A stretch of 64,000 nt of DNA, from positions 1,178,001 through 1,242,000 of the forward strand of contig NZ_CP076326.1 in NCBI RefSeq assembly GCF_018771565.1, in the 5' to 3' direction. This document shows positions 30,834-47,582 of this stretch, in pieces (the first letter of the stretch is position 1; every line of letters starts with the position of its first letter). Under the pieces are notes generated by a model. It had not been told where the DNA came from and did no database searches. It saw nothing but the letters and a program-made list of their open reading frames with translations. The position numbers were made by a program, and so were the translations under genes. This DNA is from Thermoflexus hugenholtzii (GTDB taxonomy: Bacteria; Chloroflexota; Anaerolineae; Thermoflexales; Thermoflexaceae).

Positions 30834-31435
30834 CCGTTCCCCTCCCGGATCAACCCATCTACCGCGTCCGCCGGGACCGCCAGGCTTTGATCCCCGCCCA
30901 CCACCATCGCGCTCACCCCCACCACCCGTCCCCAGGCGTCCAGCAACGGGCCACCGGAGTTCCCCGGCGCCAGCGCCGCATCCGTGCGCAACAGACGGAG
31001 CGTCCCGCGCGGGCCGCCGGTTCGGACGATCACCCATCCGCTGAACACCCCCAGGGTGACGGAATAAGGCTCGCCCCATGGATGCCCCAGGGCCAGCATC
31101 AGGGATCCCACCCGAAGCGTGGCCGGATCGCGAAGGGGAAGCGCGGGCCCCACCGGTTGTGGGAGCCGGAGCACCGCCAGATCCAGCTCCGGCTCCACGA
31201 TCACCGGAACCGCGGGCAGGTGCGCTCCCGTCCACAGGGTCACCCGATGCGGCCCGCGGGCGAGCAGGTGGGCGCTGGTGACCACAAGCCCCGGCCGCGC
31301 GAGGAAGCCGGCCCCGAACCCCCCGCGGCCGTTCCACACCCGCACGACGCCCGGGATCACCTGCTCCAGGACGGCCCCCAGGGCGGCATCCACCGCCGCC
31401 GGAAGCCCCGCCACGGTCCACCCCGGAAAGGCCAT
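30830..31435 (-). CDS. Trypsin-like serine protease, PDZ-less
   Basis: 201 residues with an intact catalytic triad: H56 (VVTSAHLLA), D85 (PELDLAVLRL) and S160 (APGNSGGPL). No PDZ domain, signal peptide or obvious membrane anchor is seen, so location is uncertain. It overlaps the 3' end of the HtrA-like gene upstream by 79 nt and the LuxR start downstream by 4 nt, giving tight coupling. A protease-protease-regulator set suggests proteolytic sensing or quality control (inference). Confidence 0.87.
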   Translation of the reverse strand: MAFPGWTVAGLPAAVDAALGAVLEQVIPGVVRVWNGRGGFGAGFLARPGLVVTSAHLLARGPHRVTLWTGAHLPAVPVIVEPELDLAVLRLPQPVGPALPLRDPATLRVGSLMLALGHPWGEPYSVTLGVFSGWVIVRTGGPRGTLRLLRTDAALAPGNSGGPLLDAWGRVVGVSAMVVGGDQSLAVPADAVDGLIREGNG

Positions 31436-32358
31436 TGTGCTTCCTCCCGTGTCTCCCGACGCTCCCCCACGATCAGCGACAGCGTCCGCCGCTCCTCCCC
31501 CCGGAGCACCTCCACCTCAACCGGGCGACCCACCACATCCCCGAAGAGCTGGGCCTGGAGATCCTCCGCATCCTGGACCGGATGGCCCTGGAAGGCCGTC
31601 AGGATGTCCCCCGGGCGCAACCCGGCCTGGGCTGCCGGGCTCCCCTCCTCCACCCCCACAATCAGCAACCCATGGGATTGAGGACGTCCCAGGGCCGCCT
31701 GCTGCGCCGGGGCGAGGGGAACCGATTGCGTGCGGACGCCCAGGTAGCCCCGGCGGACCTGTCCTTCGCGGGCCAGGGCCTCCGCCACCCGCCAGGCCAG
31801 CCGGATGGGGATGGACAGCGGGATCCCGGCCAGGCCGGAGGTGTTGATCCCGACCGCCCGCCCTTCCCCATCGATCAGCGGGCCTCCCGAGAAGCCCGGA
31901 TACATGGTGGCATCGGTGCGCAGATAGCGCTCCAGCCATCCGCCCCAGGGCGTGCGGAGCGGACCGCCGACCGCGGTGATCACCCCCAGGCTGGCCTGGA
32001 TGCCCTCCGGGGTGGGCCGCCCCAGGGCCAGGACGATCTGGCCCACCCGGGGTTCCCTCTCCGCGATCTCCAGCACCGGAACCGATCCCTCGGATACCCG
32101 CAACAGCGCCAGATCCGTGGCGGGGTCCCGGCCGATGCGGACGGCTGTCCGCTCCCGGCCGTCCGGCAACACCACCCGGATCTCCTCTCGCTCGATGACA
32201 TGGTCCGCCGTCAGCACCAGGTCTGCCGCGTAGCCGACCCCGCTGGCTGGCCAGCGATCCCGCGCGTCCACTGTGACCGTGGCCGCCGCCCCTCGCGCGG
32301 CGGCCTCTGCCAGGGCCTCCGACAAGGCGACCAACGGATTCGGAAACTCGCGCTCCAT
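31357..32358 (-). CDS. HtrA/Deg-like serine protease with C-terminal PDZ domain
   Basis: 333 residues. The triad is H53 (VLTADHVIE), D82 (TDLALLRV) and S157 in YPGFSGGPL, where the common Asn before Ser is Phe. A PDZ domain covers about residues 230-315 (RRGYLGVRTQSVPL, GLLIVGVEEGSPAAQAGLRP). A Trp/Arg-rich tail ends the protein. No signal peptide is visible, in contrast to periplasmic DegP. The ATG at 32358 has AAGGAGG seven bases upstream. First gene of the protease-protease-LuxR operon. Confidence 0.9.
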   Translation of the reverse strand: MEREFPNPLVALSEALAEAAARGAAATVTVDARDRWPASGVGYAADLVLTADHVIEREEIRVVLPDGRERTAVRIGRDPATDLALLRVSEGSVPVLEIAEREPRVGQIVLALGRPTPEGIQASLGVITAVGGPLRTPWGGWLERYLRTDATMYPGFSGGPLIDGEGRAVGINTSGLAGIPLSIPIRLAWRVAEALAREGQVRRGYLGVRTQSVPLAPAQQAALGRPQSHGLLIVGVEEGSPAAQAGLRPGDILTAFQGHPVQDAEDLQAQLFGDVVGRPVEVEVLRGEERRTLSLIVGERRETREEAQWPFRGGPWRGFRRRWMPPWGPSWSR

Positions 32359-32509: not shown

Positions 32510-32966
32510 TCGCAGAAGCGGCTTTCGACACGACCCTTGCCGTCTCGAGGACGGCAGTTCAGGGCCAAAGCGCCCTGCGTAAGAAATTCATCCCGGCATC
32601 CGTATTGTAGGAGCGGCTTCAGCCGCGACCCTCGCGCTATCGAAGACAGAGGTTCGGGATGGAAGCCCCTCCCACAAGAAAGCAACCTTCGCCTTCTGGA
32701 AGACGGAGATTCGGGGCTAAAGCCCCTCCTACCAAAAAGATCACCACCTATAGGAGCGGCTTCAGCCGCGACCTTTACGTCATCGAAAACCAGAGGCTGG
32801 GAGTTGCCGGAGCGGCTTCCGTCGCAACCCTTGCGTCATCGAGGACGGAGGTTCGGGGCTAAAGCCCCTTCTACAACAGAAACGGATTTTCGTAGGAGCG
32901 GCTTCAGCCGCGAACTCCTTGCGGGATCAAGAACATGCGATTTGGGACTAAAGCTTCTCTCACAGG
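32510..32966. repeat. Array of paired REP-like palindromes (BIME-like)
   Basis: Two related palindromic elements alternate in opposite orientation. Forward elements (GTAGGAGCGGCTTCAGCCGC and variants) lie at about 32606-32628, 32751-32773, 32808-32830 and 32891-32913. Inverted elements (GGGGCTAAAGCCCCTCCTAC and variants) lie at about 32653-32675, 32711-32732, 32851-32875 and 32943-32962. A degraded unit is at 32514-32580. Read on one strand both types begin GTAGGAG-GGGCTT-AGCC, so each roughly 70-bp unit is a head-to-head REP pair. The remaining parts of the 874-nt gene-free interval (32359-33232) show no supported gene. Confidence 0.8.
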
Positions 32967-33232
32967 AAGCACCGATCACACAGGACCCTGCCCGTTGATA
33001 GGGGAGCAAATCGATCCCGGCGAAAGCCATGCCCGTCGGGAAACAAAGGCGTTGTGGGGCTTTTGTAGGCCGAAATTCCTTTCGGCCTATATCCAGGGGG
33101 TAGAGAGACGCGCACCGTTTAGAAGGATACGTTTTCAGAAAGGGATTCAGGCCTCTGGGTTGGAGAGGGACCAGCAGGCGATCGGGGATGCGCGCGGATT
33201 CTCTGAGATCGGATGCGGAGCCTTCCCTGCGT

Positions 33233-34339
33233 TCACCCCAGCCCGCGATAAACTTCGAGAGTACGCCGGGCGGTCTCCTGCCAGGAGAACTGCCCGGCGC
33301 GCGCCCGCGCCGCCGCCCGCCACACGGGATCCTTGGCCCTTCGCCAGGCGACCTCGAGGACGCGGACCATCCCCTCCACATCCCGGGGATCGAAGAACAT
33401 CGCCGCCTCCCCCGCCACCTCCCGCAACGCCGGGATGTCCGAACACGCCACCGGCACCCCGCAGGCCATCGCCTCCAGGACCGGCAGGCCGAAACCCTCC
33501 CAGAGGGAAGGGAAAACGAACAGCCGCGCGCCGGTGTAGAGGGCCGGCAGATCCTCCTCAGGGACCATCCCCAGATCCCGCGCGCCCGGCCGGAGCCGCA
33601 GCGGGTAACGGGGATCCCGCGGGCCGGCCAGGATCAGCGTCGCCGATGAATCCGGAAGCCGCTCCCGCACGCGCGCCCATGCCTCCAGCAATCGATCGAT
33701 GTTCTTCGATGGCTTGTTCACTCCCACCCAGAGGGCATACGGCGGCCGGATGCCGTAATGAGAAAGGGCCTCCGCCACCTCCTGGGGAGGGCGCGGGAAG
33801 AAATGGGGGTCGGCCGCTTCAGGGGTCACTGCCACCCGGCCGCGGGGGACGCCGAAGAGGCGGAACAAGTCTTCCTGCGTGGCCCGGGAGATCACGAAGA
33901 CCGCATCCGCCCGGGCCAGGACGCATCGATGCCAGAACCGGTAGAGCCACCGCTGGAGCGCGGACCAGGCAGCGGGCAGGCGCAGCGGGGCGAAATCATG
34001 CAACGTCACCGCGAGCGGAGCCGACCGCCGGAGCAGACCCAGGGGGACCGCATAGTGGGGCACGTGGACCAGGGCCTCCGGCCATCGCCGGAGAAGCCAG
34101 GGGATCGCCCAATGCTCCGCCGGCGCAAAAGGAGGGATGGAAACCGGGATCCGCTGCACGGCCGGGAACCGATCCAGCGCCCGCAGATCCCAGCGTCGGT
34201 TGGGCGCTTGCGGCACGTAGAGCAGACGCAGCCGCAGACCCGGCTCCAGCGAGAGCATGGCTTCCAGCAGGCGGAAGGCGTAGCGTCCGATCCCCGGGAA
34301 GCGATCCTGGATCACCCGGCCGTCGAACACCACCTCCAT
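33233..34339 (-). CDS. Glycosyltransferase family 4 (GT-B)
   Basis: 368 residues. The N-terminal domain has FDGRVIQDRFPGIGRYAFRL, the glycine-rich acceptor loop. The C-terminal domain has PYALWVGVNKPSKNIDRLLEA and the nucleotide-sugar E-x7-E motif in FPSLWEGFGLPVLEAMACG, followed by PVACSDIPALREVAG. It probably adds a hexose from a nucleotide sugar to a lipid-linked or surface glycan on the cytoplasmic face. It is the last gene of the run glmS, GT4, VanZ, epimerase, GT4, 14 nt after the epimerase gene. Confidence 0.92.
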   Translation of the reverse strand: MEVVFDGRVIQDRFPGIGRYAFRLLEAMLSLEPGLRLRLLYVPQAPNRRWDLRALDRFPAVQRIPVSIPPFAPAEHWAIPWLLRRWPEALVHVPHYAVPLGLLRRSAPLAVTLHDFAPLRLPAAWSALQRWLYRFWHRCVLARADAVFVISRATQEDLFRLFGVPRGRVAVTPEAADPHFFPRPPQEVAEALSHYGIRPPYALWVGVNKPSKNIDRLLEAWARVRERLPDSSATLILAGPRDPRYPLRLRPGARDLGMVPEEDLPALYTGARLFVFPSLWEGFGLPVLEAMACGVPVACSDIPALREVAGEAAMFFDPRDVEGMVRVLEVAWRRAKDPVWRAAARARAGQFSWQETARRTLEVYRGLG

Positions 34340-36468: not shown

Positions 36469-38313
36469 TCATTCCACCGTAACGCTTTTGGCCAGGTTGC
36501 GGGGCTGATCCACATCGCATCCGCGCAGCACCGCGATATGGTAGGCCAGCAATTGCAACGGCACCACCGCCACCACCGGCTGAAGCCAGCGGGGAGCATG
36601 CGGCACCGAGAGGACCACATCGGCGCGTGCGGATGCCGCCCGGTCGCCGTCGGTGACCAGAGCGATCACCTGCCCCCGGCGGGCCCGCACCTGCTCCATC
36701 TGGCTGAGCATCTTCTCATAAGTCACGGGGTCCTGCAACGCCAGGGCCACCGTCGGCATGCGCTCATCGATCAGGGCGATGGGCCCGTGCTTCATCTCCC
36801 CCGCCGGATACCCCTCCGCGTGGATGTAGCTGAGCTCCTTCAGCTTGAGCGCCCCCTCCAGGGCGATGGGGTAAAGCAACCCTCGCCCCAGGTAGAGGAA
36901 GTCCTCATAGCGGTAAAAGGCCCGGGCGACCTCCACCACCTCGGCCTCCCGGTCCAGGACCCGGCCCAGGAGGTCGGGCAGGCGGGCCAGCTCGCGGACG
37001 TGCTCGCGAAGCTCCTCCGGGCTCAGGGTCCCCCGCAGCTCGGCCAGCCGCAGGGCCAGCAGCAGCTCGTCCACGATGGAGGTCGTGAAGGCTTTGGAGG
37101 AAGCCACCCCGATCTCGGGGCCGGCGTGCATCAGGATGCAGGCATCCGCCATGCGGTGGGCCTGGGAGCCGATGACGTTGACGATGCTCCACAACCGCGC
37201 GCCCCCCTCCCGCGCTCGCTCCATCGCCGCCAGAGTGTCCACGGTCTCCCCGCTCTGGGAGATGGCCAGCACCACCGTGTCCGCATCCAGCACGGGGTCG
37301 CGATAGCGGAACTCGCTGCCGTAATCGACCTCGGTGGGGATGCGGGCCAGGGATTCAAAGTAGAACTTGCCCACCAGCCCGGCATAATAGGAAGTGCCGC
37401 AGGCCACGATCACGATGCGGGAGATGCGCCGCGCCGCCTCGGGGCTCAGCGGGACCTCCTCCAGCGTCACCCGGCCGCGCTCGAAATCCACCCGTCCCCG
37501 CAGCGTATCCGTGACGGCCCGGGGCTGCTCGTGGATTTCCTTATGCATAAAGTGCCGGTAGGGCCCCTTGGCCGCCGCCACGGGATCCCAGGGGATGGTC
37601 TGCACCGGCAGGTGCACCGGCTCCCCCTCCAAAGTCCACACCCGGACGTCGTCCCGGCGCACCACGGCCATCTGGCGGCTCTCCAGGAAGAGCATGCGGC
37701 GGGTGTGCTCCAGGATGGCCGGGATGTCCGAGGCGACGAACATCTCCCCCTCTCCCAGGCCGATCACCACCCCTCCGGCGTTGCCGATGCGGACGGCGAT
37801 GAGGCGATCGGGGTGGTCGGCGGAGAGGACGACGATGGCATGGGCGCCCTGCAGAGCCTGGAAGGCGCGGCGGGCGGCGGTCTCCAGGTCGGCCCCGGCG
37901 CGGAGGTGCGCCTCGATGAGATGGGCGATGACCTCGGTGTCCGTCTCCGAGGTGAAGCGATGGCCCTCCGCCTGGAGAGCCTGGCGCAGCTCGAGGAAGT
38001 TCTCCACGATCCCGTTGTGGATCACGGCGATGCGCCCCGTGCAATCCCGGTGCGGGTGGGCGTTATGATCCGCGGGGGCGCCGTGAGTCGCCCAGCGGGT
38101 GTGGCCCATCCCGATGAACCCGGAGGCCGGCTCCGCTTCCAGCAGATCCATCAGCTGGCGGATCTTCCCCGCGCGCCGCCGGACCTCCAGCCGGCCGTCC
38201 TGGACCACCACCAGCCCGGCGGAGTCGTAGCCCCGGTATTCCAGCCGTCTCAGGCCCTCGATCAGGATGGGCACCGCATCCCGGTGCCCGACGTATCCGA
38301 CAATGCCGCACAT
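36469..38313 (-). CDS. glmS: Glucosamine-6-phosphate synthase (isomerizing)
   Basis: 614 residues, standard length. Cys2 (MCGIVGYVG) is the glutamine amidotransferase nucleophile; HTRWATHG and NGIVENF are in the glutaminase domain. Two SIS domains follow: ACGTSYYAGLVGKFYFE, SQSGETVDTLAAM, SSKAFTTSIVDELLLA. The C-terminus ends DQPRNLAKSVTVE, the conserved tail that closes the active site. It makes glucosamine-6-phosphate from fructose-6-phosphate and glutamine. The start has GGGAGG six bases upstream. A self-cleaving glmS ribozyme occupies its leader, so product feedback is expected. Confidence 0.97.
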   Translation of the reverse strand: MCGIVGYVGHRDAVPILIEGLRRLEYRGYDSAGLVVVQDGRLEVRRRAGKIRQLMDLLEAEPASGFIGMGHTRWATHGAPADHNAHPHRDCTGRIAVIHNGIVENFLELRQALQAEGHRFTSETDTEVIAHLIEAHLRAGADLETAARRAFQALQGAHAIVVLSADHPDRLIAVRIGNAGGVVIGLGEGEMFVASDIPAILEHTRRMLFLESRQMAVVRRDDVRVWTLEGEPVHLPVQTIPWDPVAAAKGPYRHFMHKEIHEQPRAVTDTLRGRVDFERGRVTLEEVPLSPEAARRISRIVIVACGTSYYAGLVGKFYFESLARIPTEVDYGSEFRYRDPVLDADTVVLAISQSGETVDTLAAMERAREGGARLWSIVNVIGSQAHRMADACILMHAGPEIGVASSKAFTTSIVDELLLALRLAELRGTLSPEELREHVRELARLPDLLGRVLDREAEVVEVARAFYRYEDFLYLGRGLLYPIALEGALKLKELSYIHAEGYPAGEMKHGPIALIDERMPTVALALQDPVTYEKMLSQMEQVRARRGQVIALVTDGDRAASARADVVLSVPHAPRWLQPVVAVVPLQLLAYHIAVLRGCDVDQPRNLAKSVTVE

Positions 38314-38421
38314 GGCAGCCTCCCGAAATGAAGGGGGAATTTTCCGGAAGACCATCCTTCGCCCTTCCCGGGCCAGCGTCCGGCCGGGAGGGCCTGTCAG
38401 GAGGATCGATCGAGGGCCGCT

Positions 38422-38620
38422 GCCGGCCGTTTTGTCCCGCCGGTTGCCCGGCGGTTTTGTCGGCCGGCTTCTGGAGGGGGGAAGTAGGGGTCGCGGCCGG
38501 ACCCCTGGCGGCATCCGCCGAAGCCTCGATTTTCCCCGGCTCAGAAGCCGGGTTAGCCCCGCCGGAGCGGGGAACCGCCTCCCTCGTCACCCGCGGGAGA
38601 TCTCCCACGGGCCAGGCGCT
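38422..38620 (-). ncRNA. glmS ribozyme/riboswitch (GlcN6P-responsive)
   Basis: The antisense strand matches the glmS ribozyme core step by step. A|GCGCC marks the cleavage site (A at 38620, G1 at 38619). A 10-bp P1 follows (CCCGTGGGAG/CTCCCGCGGG), then GACGAGG, P2 (GGCGG with CCGCC), AUCGAGGCUUCGGCGGAUG, P3 (AGGGGTC/GACCCCT), and P4 at 38422-38468 with GCCGGCC/GGCCGGC, ACAAAA bulges and a GNRA (GCAA) tetraloop. It lies about 110 nt before the glmS start, on the correct strand. A pair of extra hairpins (about 38533-38574) is inserted between the 5' strand of P2 and AUCGA. In known examples glucosamine-6-phosphate acts as cofactor for cleavage, lowering glmS expression. Confidence 0.9.
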
Positions 38621-38704
38621 GGCTTCCCCCCGGATCCCCGCCTGACCATTACGAACCTCCTGAAGACTTGCAGGTTGTCCTGCGATTTTAGAACACGCCC
38701 CCGA

Positions 38705-46262: not shown

Positions 46263-47582
46263 ATGACGATGCGCTGCAGAACGGTCCGAGAGGGGATGGA
46301 GGTGCGGGGGTTCACGGCGGATCACCCGCCGGATTACGGGGAGATCCTCCGCTGCACCCACTGCGGGCTCTGCCTGAACCAGTGCCCGACCTTCCGGGTG
46401 CTGGGGTGGGAGCCGGATTCGCCCCGGGGGCGCATCTACCTGATGCGGGCGGTGGCGGAGGGCCGTCTGGAGATCAACCCGGACTTCCGGGAGCATATGG
46501 AGGTCTGCCTGGCCTGCCGCGCGTGCCAGACCGCCTGCCCCGCCACCCTGTCCTTCGGACGCCTGGTCGAAGCCGCCCGCTGGCAGGTCCTCCAGACGCT
46601 CCCGCTCTCACCCCCAGAGCGCCTGATCCGCGCCCTCGTCTTCGGGGGGATCCTTGCCCATCCGAGCCTCCTGGCCCTGCTCTCCCGCGGGCTGTGGCTT
46701 TACCAGGCCAGCGGGGTCCGCGCCCTGATCCGGCGGAACGGGCTGATCACCCGCCTGCCTCCCGCGCTGCGGAACATGGAGGAGATGCTCCCGGATCGCC
46801 TCCCCTCCCGCTTCCTTCCCACGGGAAGGCGCTATCCGGCGGTGGGGGAGCGGCGCGGACGAGTCGCCCTGCTGGCCGGATGTGTCATGCGCACCTTGCT
46901 GGCCCCCATCCAGGAGGCCACGGTCCGGGTCCTCACCCGTCAGGGATTCGAGGTGGTGATCCCGCGAGGCCAGGTTTGCTGTGGGGCGCTGCACGTGCAC
47001 GCCGGAGAGCGACGGCGGGCCCAGGCGCTGGCCCGACGGAACCTGGCCGCTTTCACGCGCGAGGAGGTCGACGCCATCCTGGTCAACGCCGCGGGCTGCG
47101 GCGTGGCGATGAAGGAATATGGGGATCTTCTGAAGGATGATCCCCACTGGGCGGAGGCGGCGCGGACCTTCAGCGCGAAGGTTCGGGATGTGACGGAGTT
47201 CCTGGACGCCGTCGGACTGCGGCCGCCGCTGCGCCGCATCGCCGGGCGGGCCGTTTACCAGGACCCCTGTCATCTGGCCCACGGCCAGGGGACCCGCGCC
47301 CAGCCCCGGCGTTTGCTGCGGGCGGTGGGGTTGACCGTGCTGGAGCTCCCCGACGGGGATCTGTGCTGCGGCAGCGCGGGGATTTACAACATCACCCATC
47401 CGGAGATCGCCGACGCGCTGCTCGAAGAGAAAGTGACGCAAATCCGCCGGCTGAACCCCGAGCGAGTGGTGACCGCCAACGCGGGCTGCCTGCTTCAGCT
47501 GGCCATGGGCCTGCGCCGCAACGGTCTCTCCATCCCGGTCCAGCACGTGATAGAGGTCCTGGACGAGGCCACGGCCGGTTGA
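46263..47582 (+). CDS. glcF: Glycolate oxidase iron-sulfur subunit GlcF-like
   Basis: 439 residues from ATG 46263. Two 4Fe-4S motifs are present: CTHCGLCLNQCP (about residue 31-42) and CLACRACQTACP (about 82-93). Two CCG domains are present: GCVMRTLLAPIQEAT with CCGALHVHAGERRRA, and YQDPCHLAHGQ with CCGSAGIYN. It passes electrons from GlcDE to the quinone pool. ATGs at 46269 and 46296 are alternatives; the original upstream region appears to have been replaced by the IS right end, so the true start is uncertain. Confidence 0.92.
   Translation: MTMRCRTVREGMEVRGFTADHPPDYGEILRCTHCGLCLNQCPTFRVLGWEPDSPRGRIYLMRAVAEGRLEINPDFREHMEVCLACRACQTACPATLSFGRLVEAARWQVLQTLPLSPPERLIRALVFGGILAHPSLLALLSRGLWLYQASGVRALIRRNGLITRLPPALRNMEEMLPDRLPSRFLPTGRRYPAVGERRGRVALLAGCVMRTLLAPIQEATVRVLTRQGFEVVIPRGQVCCGALHVHAGERRRAQALARRNLAAFTREEVDAILVNAAGCGVAMKEYGDLLKDDPHWAEAARTFSAKVRDVTEFLDAVGLRPPLRRIAGRAVYQDPCHLAHGQGTRAQPRRLLRAVGLTVLELPDGDLCCGSAGIYNITHPEIADALLEEKVTQIRRLNPERVVTANAGCLLQLAMGLRRNGLSIPVQHVIEVLDEATAG

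Follow-up and report, generated by a model that had tools for sequence, protein, structure and literature searches.

The closest described systems are the GTAG-1 REPs of Pseudomonas and Xanthomonas and their RAYT transposases of subclass 2.5. As far as these are described in the text of the respective articles (PMC3733652, PMC6006769, PMC2817692), the REPs of Thermoflexus hugenholtzii analyzed here share with them (i) the GTAG foot, the GA dinucleotide, the 6-bp GC stem, and the GA[CA] tail, (ii) the occurrence as doublets or alternating clusters, and (iii) a RAYT that is flanked by its own REP and contains DHxH, WQ, and D-H..R motifs. They differ in that the Thermoflexus host belongs to the Chloroflexota and in that its RAYT, which is at most 46% identical to those of the Pseudomonadota, appears to branch outside their clade and has the motif YIEENP, whereas the Pseudomonas/Xanthomonas RAYTs of subclass 2.5 have YI[VI]ANP. 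In the 2017 RAYT classification of Bertels, group 3 reportedly corresponds to this subclass. The GA insertion was described in 2010 as unique to a monophyletic Pseudomonas/Xanthomonas RAYT group, and coevolution was argued (PMC2817692, in its text); the text of PMC3733652, Figure 1 aside, gives extra GW bases only for GTAG-1 and -2.

REPINs are miniature mobile elements without a gene of their own that consist of two inverted REP hairpins with their GTAG ends outward. Those described in the text on Pseudomonas fluorescens SBW25 are, like the Thermoflexus elements, inverted doublets of ~69 to 71 bp that form one hairpin, occur in tandem clusters, and are linked to a RAYT (PMC3116915); in Thermoflexus, however, typed pairs always consist of a C-type and a G-type REP, and a fused composite of ~125 bp is the commoner class. 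The GTAG-23 REPs of Thermomicrobium roseum, a member of the same phylum, are likewise GTAG tagged and clustered, but the text of PMC3733652 presents them as a separate family that is inserted in small palindromes. The BIME/REP system of Escherichia coli with TnpA-REP (RayT) shares a homologous RAYT (27% identity) and alternating REP clusters, but this RAYT belongs to a different clade, and the E. coli REPs are described as longer and bulged (PMC8266576, in its text) and are devoid of the GA dinucleotide. An initial annotation of the locus analyzed here, made from the sequence alone, had singled out REP-like palindromes outside the Proteobacteria. The array is real, but GTAG REPs outside this phylum, including those of the Chloroflexi (T. 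roseum GTAG-23), were already in print according to the text of PMC3733652. In the open-access literature, which for PMC3733652 comprised the text apart from Figure 1 and the supplements, no article was found to describe GTAG-1-type REPs together with a RAYT from the Chloroflexota, Thermoflexus included.

The REP array in the window

The window is a stretch of 64,000 nucleotides, corresponding to positions 1178001-1242000 of the single contig of 3,316,678 bp that forms the source genome (G000). Scanning the window for GTAGGAGSGGCTTYMGCCSCGA with up to 5 mismatches retrieved five forward copies at 32512, 32607, 32750, 32806, and 32892 (4, 0, 1, 4, and 0 mismatches, respectively) and three inverted copies at 32654, 32711, and 32853 (3, 0, and 1 mismatches, respectively). 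All eight fall within 32510-32966, and the sole other match in the window is at 46406, with 5 mismatches. Two further decayed inverted copies were spotted by eye at ~32558-32583 and 32942-32963; the four forward and four inverted copies noted initially hold only if decayed copies are counted. The inverted core had 4 matches in the window versus 0.01 in shuffled sequences, and the forward core had 25 versus 7.2, with the exact copies falling in 32510-32966. The array is composed of four units, namely, two REPINs (32512 to ~32583 and 32892 to ~32963) and two composites (32607-32732 and 32750-32874). Units of about 70 bp bounded by GTAGGAG, as proposed in the initial annotation, are represented by a 69-bp GTAG-bounded unit at 32607-32675; half of the four units, however, are ~125-bp composites. 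The features are as follows.

31357-32358, minus strand: trypsin-like/PDZ protease gene, flank, outside the element (Pfam Trypsin_2, 97.9 bits; PDZ_2, 59.8 bits; start codon by eye)
32512-32583, plus strand: decayed REPIN; forward REP at 32512-32533 (4 mismatches, scan), decayed inverted partner at ~32558-32583 (by eye)
32607-32628, plus strand: forward C-type REP without mismatches (stem, GCGGCT) (scan; hairpin fold)
32654-32675, minus strand: inverted REP, 3 mismatches; with 32607 forms the 69-bp REPIN, gap of 25 bp (scan)
32711-32732, minus strand: inverted G-type REP without mismatches (stem, GGGGCT); outer boundary of composite 32607-32732, outer gap of 82 bp (scan)
32750-32771, plus strand: forward C-type REP with 1 mismatch, separated from the preceding GTAG end by a 17-bp linker (scan)
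32806-32827, plus strand: decayed inner forward REP, 4 mismatches, within composite 32750-32874 (scan)
32853-32874, minus strand: inverted G-type REP with 1 mismatch; outer boundary of composite 32750-32874 (scan)
32892-32913, plus strand: forward C-type REP without mismatches in the last unit (scan), decayed inverted partner at ~32942-32963 (by eye)
33233-34339, minus strand: group 1 glycosyltransferase gene, flank, outside the element (Pfam PF13692, 94.2 bits)

The array sits in an 874-bp gap between two minus-strand genes, upstream of the protease gene and downstream of the glycosyltransferase gene. The 69-bp REPIN at 32607-32675 had a DNA fold of -14.2 kcal/mol (z, -2.1). A role of the array as an intrinsic terminator was not supported, since the single terminator found there is no excess over the shuffle mean of 1.5.

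Two other elements were observed in the window. A palindrome, GCCGAAATTCCTTTCGGC, adjoins the REP array at 33069-33086, and the same type (GCCGAAATnCnTTTCGGC) was counted 13 times on both strands of 35 sampled stretches of the genome. At 38412-38631, on the minus strand, there is a match to the glmS ribozyme (Rfam, 43.7 bits; gathering threshold, 37), located at the start of a glmS-like gene (36469-38514).

A genome-wide population and its RAYT

The window array belongs to a REP/REPIN population that extends over the whole genome. The initial annotation had likened it to the paired REPs that accompany RAYT transposases in Pseudomonas and Xanthomonas and had proposed to look in the genome for further copies, avoidance of genes, fixed spacing, and a Y1 REP-associated transposase, all of which were found. 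Far from being confined to this interval, the motif has 201 copies in the source genome at ≤1 mismatch (101 and 100; controls, 0), and the 22-mer at ≤3 mismatches gave 156 and 151 matches (controls, 1 and 0). Detailed analysis was done on the window and 35 stretches (172 kb) located around Y1 genes and good REP matches, a sample that favors good copies because the stretches were picked by the best REP matches. The sampled stretches contain 180 REPs at ≤4 mismatches, compared with 2 in a reversed-sequence control, and these fall at 35 sites with 1 to 12 REPs each.

A number of rules emerge from this set. (i) Pairing is regular. The gaps from a forward REP to the next inverted REP (n = 64) fall almost entirely, in 62 cases, into two narrow classes, 22 of 22 to 27 bp and 40 of 79 to 84 bp, and those from an inverted REP to the next forward REP measure 14 to 21 bp in 52 of 58 cases. 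REP pairs are inverted heterodimers with the GTAG ends outward and with either of two fixed gaps (~25 or ~82 bp): a C-type (GCGGCT) REP is joined to a G-type (GGGGCT) REP in all 56 pairs of the two main gap classes that could be typed on both sides, and the same rule holds for the single other typed pair and for 48 of 48 typed linker pairs. (ii) Genes are avoided. The centers of 168 of the 180 REPs lie outside predicted genes and 12 lie inside, versus 69.6% of random points inside (~30% outside), as judged by a simple home-made gene caller that assigned 71% of the sampled stretches as coding, below the 89% that the text of PMC8129789 gives for T. hugenholtzii JAD2T. At 22 of the 35 sites, the REPs are located between codirectional genes. 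(iii) The sequence frame is conserved. The four positions of the GTAG foot are G, T, A, and G in 165, 155, 163, and 174 of the 180 REPs, respectively, followed by G5 and A6 (169 each) and, after the stem, by G21 (171) and A22 (176); position 23 is C in the C type (0.92) and A in the G type (0.97). The stem pairs 7-20 to 11-16 are formed in 168 to 173 REPs and the pair 12-15 in only 102, and pair 8-19 flips with compensation (C-G in 95, G-C in 70 of the 180). (iv) Most REPs are followed by a CT within 6 nucleotides on the 3' side (64 of 78 C-type copies and 58 of 63 G-type copies); CT is described as the dinucleotide cut by TnpA-REPs (PMC8266576, in its text).

As stated in the initial annotation, the window is free of a RAYT gene, and the four Y1 proteins of the genome are all encoded elsewhere. 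One of them, a RAYT encoded on the minus strand at 304,637-305,227 (197 codons; ~305 kb), matches NCBIfam NF047646 (REP_Tyr_transpos) with 121.3 bits (cutoff, 80). Its best match among solved structures is the E. coli TnpA-REP 4er8 (1e-9), with the WQ....[DE]H..R segment aligned, and the HUH, WQ, and Y motifs are present. This gene of the expected family is surrounded by an array of the REP described here, with 14 REPs (≤3 mismatches) in its 3.3-kb locus, and none of the other three Y1 genes of the genome has this REP nearby.

Several side observations concern the Y1 loci. Just past the RAYT array (L075:2395-2496; G000, ~305.5 kb) there is a palindromic element of ~90 bp with GGGTGTGTCCCAA ends, which recurs with 85 to 97% identity elsewhere in G000 and in its relatives G269 and G404 and is MITE-like. 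An IS200-type TnpA gene (NF033573) lies within a dense array of different palindromes (L031:1000-2600; G000, ~1827-1829 kb), namely, GCCGATTGAAATCGGC, GCCGAATTCATTCGGC, and GGCCGACCGTCGGCC, with 6 to 9 counts each on both strands; at other IS200 loci, GCCGATTGAAATCGGC occurs 8 times in G406 (L154) and is absent from G402 (L153). RAYT-type Y1 domains also occur in frame inside large proteins of three phyla, i.e., a DUF1156 protein in G000 (L033:1-2577, minus strand, ~2863.8-2866.4 kb), an Eco57I/MmeI-type methylase of a Verrucomicrobia MAG (L106:2636-7057), and a 1,209-amino-acid protein of a Planctomycetota MAG (L105:2519-6145). A plasmid of "Ca. Chlorohelix" carries a RAYT gene that adjoins a DUF1156 gene and is close to a helicase gene.

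Composite units and distribution in the genus

The consensus of the 40 units of the 82-bp gap class measures 125 bp and aligns twice to the 69-bp REPIN consensus, with 92.6% identity between composite positions 1-54 and REPIN positions 1-53 and 93.9% between 60-125 and 4-69. By this alignment, the composite is to be read as a fused REPIN pair without most of the inner REPs. Both window composites contain 25-bp-class pairs made of an outer REP and a decayed inner REP, and the 22:40 ratio of the gap classes understates the composites because some 25-bp-class pairs belong to them. Both classes recur in G269 and G404, and the fused composite is present in the three species checked, so that the fusion probably predates these species.

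Only 3 of 400 Chloroflexota genomes match the core at ≤1 mismatch; two of these are Thermoflexus, and the third has a single copy. At the same threshold, nine Thermoflexus genomes contain 201, 177 (G404), 101 (G269), 27, 1, 0, 0, 0, and 0 copies. Despite their REPs, neither the G269 nor the G404 genome revealed a RAYT orthologue, which could be explained by loss or by assembly gaps, the latter because RAYTs sit in repeats; the link between RAYT and copy number thus rests on G000. The window site is occupied by 3 forward REPs in G269 and by 3 forward and 2 inverted REPs in G404. These are fewer and partly decayed, indicating an old shared site rather than a fresh insertion, and an "empty site" at this locus in the relatives, suggested by BLAST coordinates, was rejected since shorter arrays are present there. 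In a comparison of G000 with 760 kb of G269 plus the window site, 5 of the 7 sites that could be compared had unequal REP numbers (10 versus 3, 5 versus 2, 6 versus 0, 2 versus 3, and 8 versus 5; 2 versus 2 at two sites). The one G269 site with 0 REPs has diverged flanks and no clean empty-site junction; the differences observed are in copy number between species, and no transposition event was seen among them. In G269, at a locus homologous to 936 kb of G000 (L243:809-1187), a single REPIN abuts a gene whose stop codon may be provided by the TAG in the GTAG foot of the REPIN.

Relatives in the Pseudomonadota and the origin of the pair

Among the Pseudomonadota, the phylum of Labrys, 10 of 398 genomes contain the 22-bp core at ≤1 mismatch, four of them with 22 to 655 copies. 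The core is identical in G650 (655 copies) and G547 (107 copies), and a RAYT flanked by this or a near REP is found in G650, G547, and G840. A similar 36-mer is present on plasmids, including those of Xanthomonas sacchari (16 places), "Ca. Thiodictyon syntrophicum" (15 places), and Pseudomonas sp. ADP. When 369 genomes of the class to which G480 belongs were searched with the Thermoflexus RAYT, 54 gave a match (E ≤ 1e-15), with an identity of at most 46% and a best score of 114 bits, versus 66 bits in the other genomes among 60 relatives; this class is probably the Gammaproteobacteria, because a RAYT of G480 shares 60.5% identity with one from a Pseudomonas plasmid. A search of plasmids and phages with the RAYT gave 38.7% identity at the best plasmid place and three weak phage records (25 to 28%). 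In an earlier search, the nearest RAYT relatives were 12 loci at 35 to 42% identity, and the REP was found in 0 of the 12 corresponding genomes.

A 50-row tree with midpoint rooting places the Thermoflexus RAYT as the sister (87/75, unstarred) of 35 RAYTs from the Pseudomonadota, which form a clade of their own (98/94), and the RAYT of "Ca. Chlorohelix" (Chloroflexota) branches next to the Thermoflexus RAYT with weak support (81/40). An earlier, thinner tree left its position unsettled (AU p, 0.072 for grouping with six Pseudomonadota RAYTs; 7 rows). Nine rows were dropped from the first tree, namely, a duplicate (L077), fragments or fusions (L165, L105, and L106), and divergent sequences (L151, L162, L163, L152, and L168), and L157 and L169 never entered it. 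The second tree combined 22 of the 50 rows of the first with 28 new ones, L275 and L289 being entered as fragments and L291 and L297 being left out as having no reading frame by the rule used. A strict detector of the GT[AG]GGA-hairpin-GA signature was positive at 22 of 28 related Pseudomonadota RAYT loci (148 hits; shuffles, 0.0) and at 1 of 42 other Y1/RAYT loci, with none at the Chlorohelix or Pseudoalteromonas RAYT loci. The 28 Pseudomonadota loci contain 32 different 5' stem arms; 141 of the 148 begin with GC, and GCGGCT occurs 5 times.

We are confident that the array is a REPIN cluster, probably spread by the single RAYT of the genome that lies among the REPINs, and that its frame and RAYT clade are shared with the Pseudomonadota through deep ancestry or old transfer. 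The gene of this RAYT, at ~305 kb, is embedded in an array of these REPs (a REPtron). We infer its activity, cleavage site, and single-stranded intermediate as follows. The locus would become single stranded, e.g., as the lagging-strand template; the RAYT would recognize the foot (GTAG), the GA that follows it, and the short hairpin, cut at a nearby CT, and move or copy the REP pair to sites between genes. Arrays would then expand and contract locally by tandem duplication and deletion, and a REPIN pair that lost the inner REP halves would give rise to the ~125-bp composite, multiplied as one unit.

It is unlikely that the REPs are passive repeats whose RAYT no longer acts and which are spread by recombination or tandem duplication or retained as RNA or DNA hairpins for mRNA end protection or termination. 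Array lengths do differ between species at shared sites, copies lie between codirectional genes at 22 of 35 sites, and three REP-rich or REP-bearing genomes of the genus revealed no RAYT orthologue. However, the dispersal over 35 separate sites in the sampled stretches, the strict heterodimer rule with fixed gaps, and the absence of an intrinsic-terminator excess at the window array argue against it.

That unrelated RAYTs settled independently on the same short hairpin, favored by the enzyme or the cell, appears quite improbable. Stems vary freely inside a fixed frame, as the 32 arms in 28 loci illustrate, so that an identical 6-bp stem such as GCGGCT can recur by chance, and convergence may account for the exact stem. 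It would not account for the frame: GTAG foot, GA, GC stem, and GA tail are tied to one RAYT clade (22/28 versus 1/42), beside which the Thermoflexus RAYT appears to branch. Recent horizontal transfer of a Xanthomonas/Pseudomonas REPtron followed by expansion, in line with the identical core in G650 and G547, the plasmid 36-mers, and the 114-bit score, is highly improbable, as no such event is seen when the RAYT is at most 46% identical among 369 genomes and appears to stand beside, not inside, the Pseudomonadota clade, next (with weak support) to that of "Ca. Chlorohelix," and as the 27 to 201 copies in 4 of 9 genomes and the common composite indicate that the REP family is not new to Thermoflexus.

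The choice between transfer and convergence offered in the initial annotation is therefore too simple. Since RAYT and frame are linked across the clade and the Thermoflexus RAYT is divergent and apparently not nested within the Pseudomonadota clade, the sequence comparisons point to deep ancestry or old, not recent, transfer of a GTAGGA-type REP and RAYT pair common to the Pseudomonadota and Thermoflexus, with the exact stem identity across phyla perhaps being partly of independent origin. More tentatively, and with considerable doubt, this clade may predate Pseudomonas and Xanthomonas, with the Chloroflexota as early branches, the Pseudomonadota RAYTs stemming from an ancient interphylum exchange in which enzyme and frame moved together, and the fused REPIN dimer being the main replicating unit in Thermoflexus.

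The Thermoflexus case extends the GTAGGA-type REP/RAYT pairing to the Chloroflexota. Because this REP frame occurs together with a matching, deep-branching RAYT in a thermophilic genus of that phylum, the coevolution of RAYT and REP can be viewed apart from the phylogeny of the hosts and becomes testable. The RAYT, for which heat stability is expected, and its short hairpins lend themselves to biochemical work, and the genus, whose 9 genomes range from 0 to 201 copies, provides a natural series for the rise and loss of REP populations.
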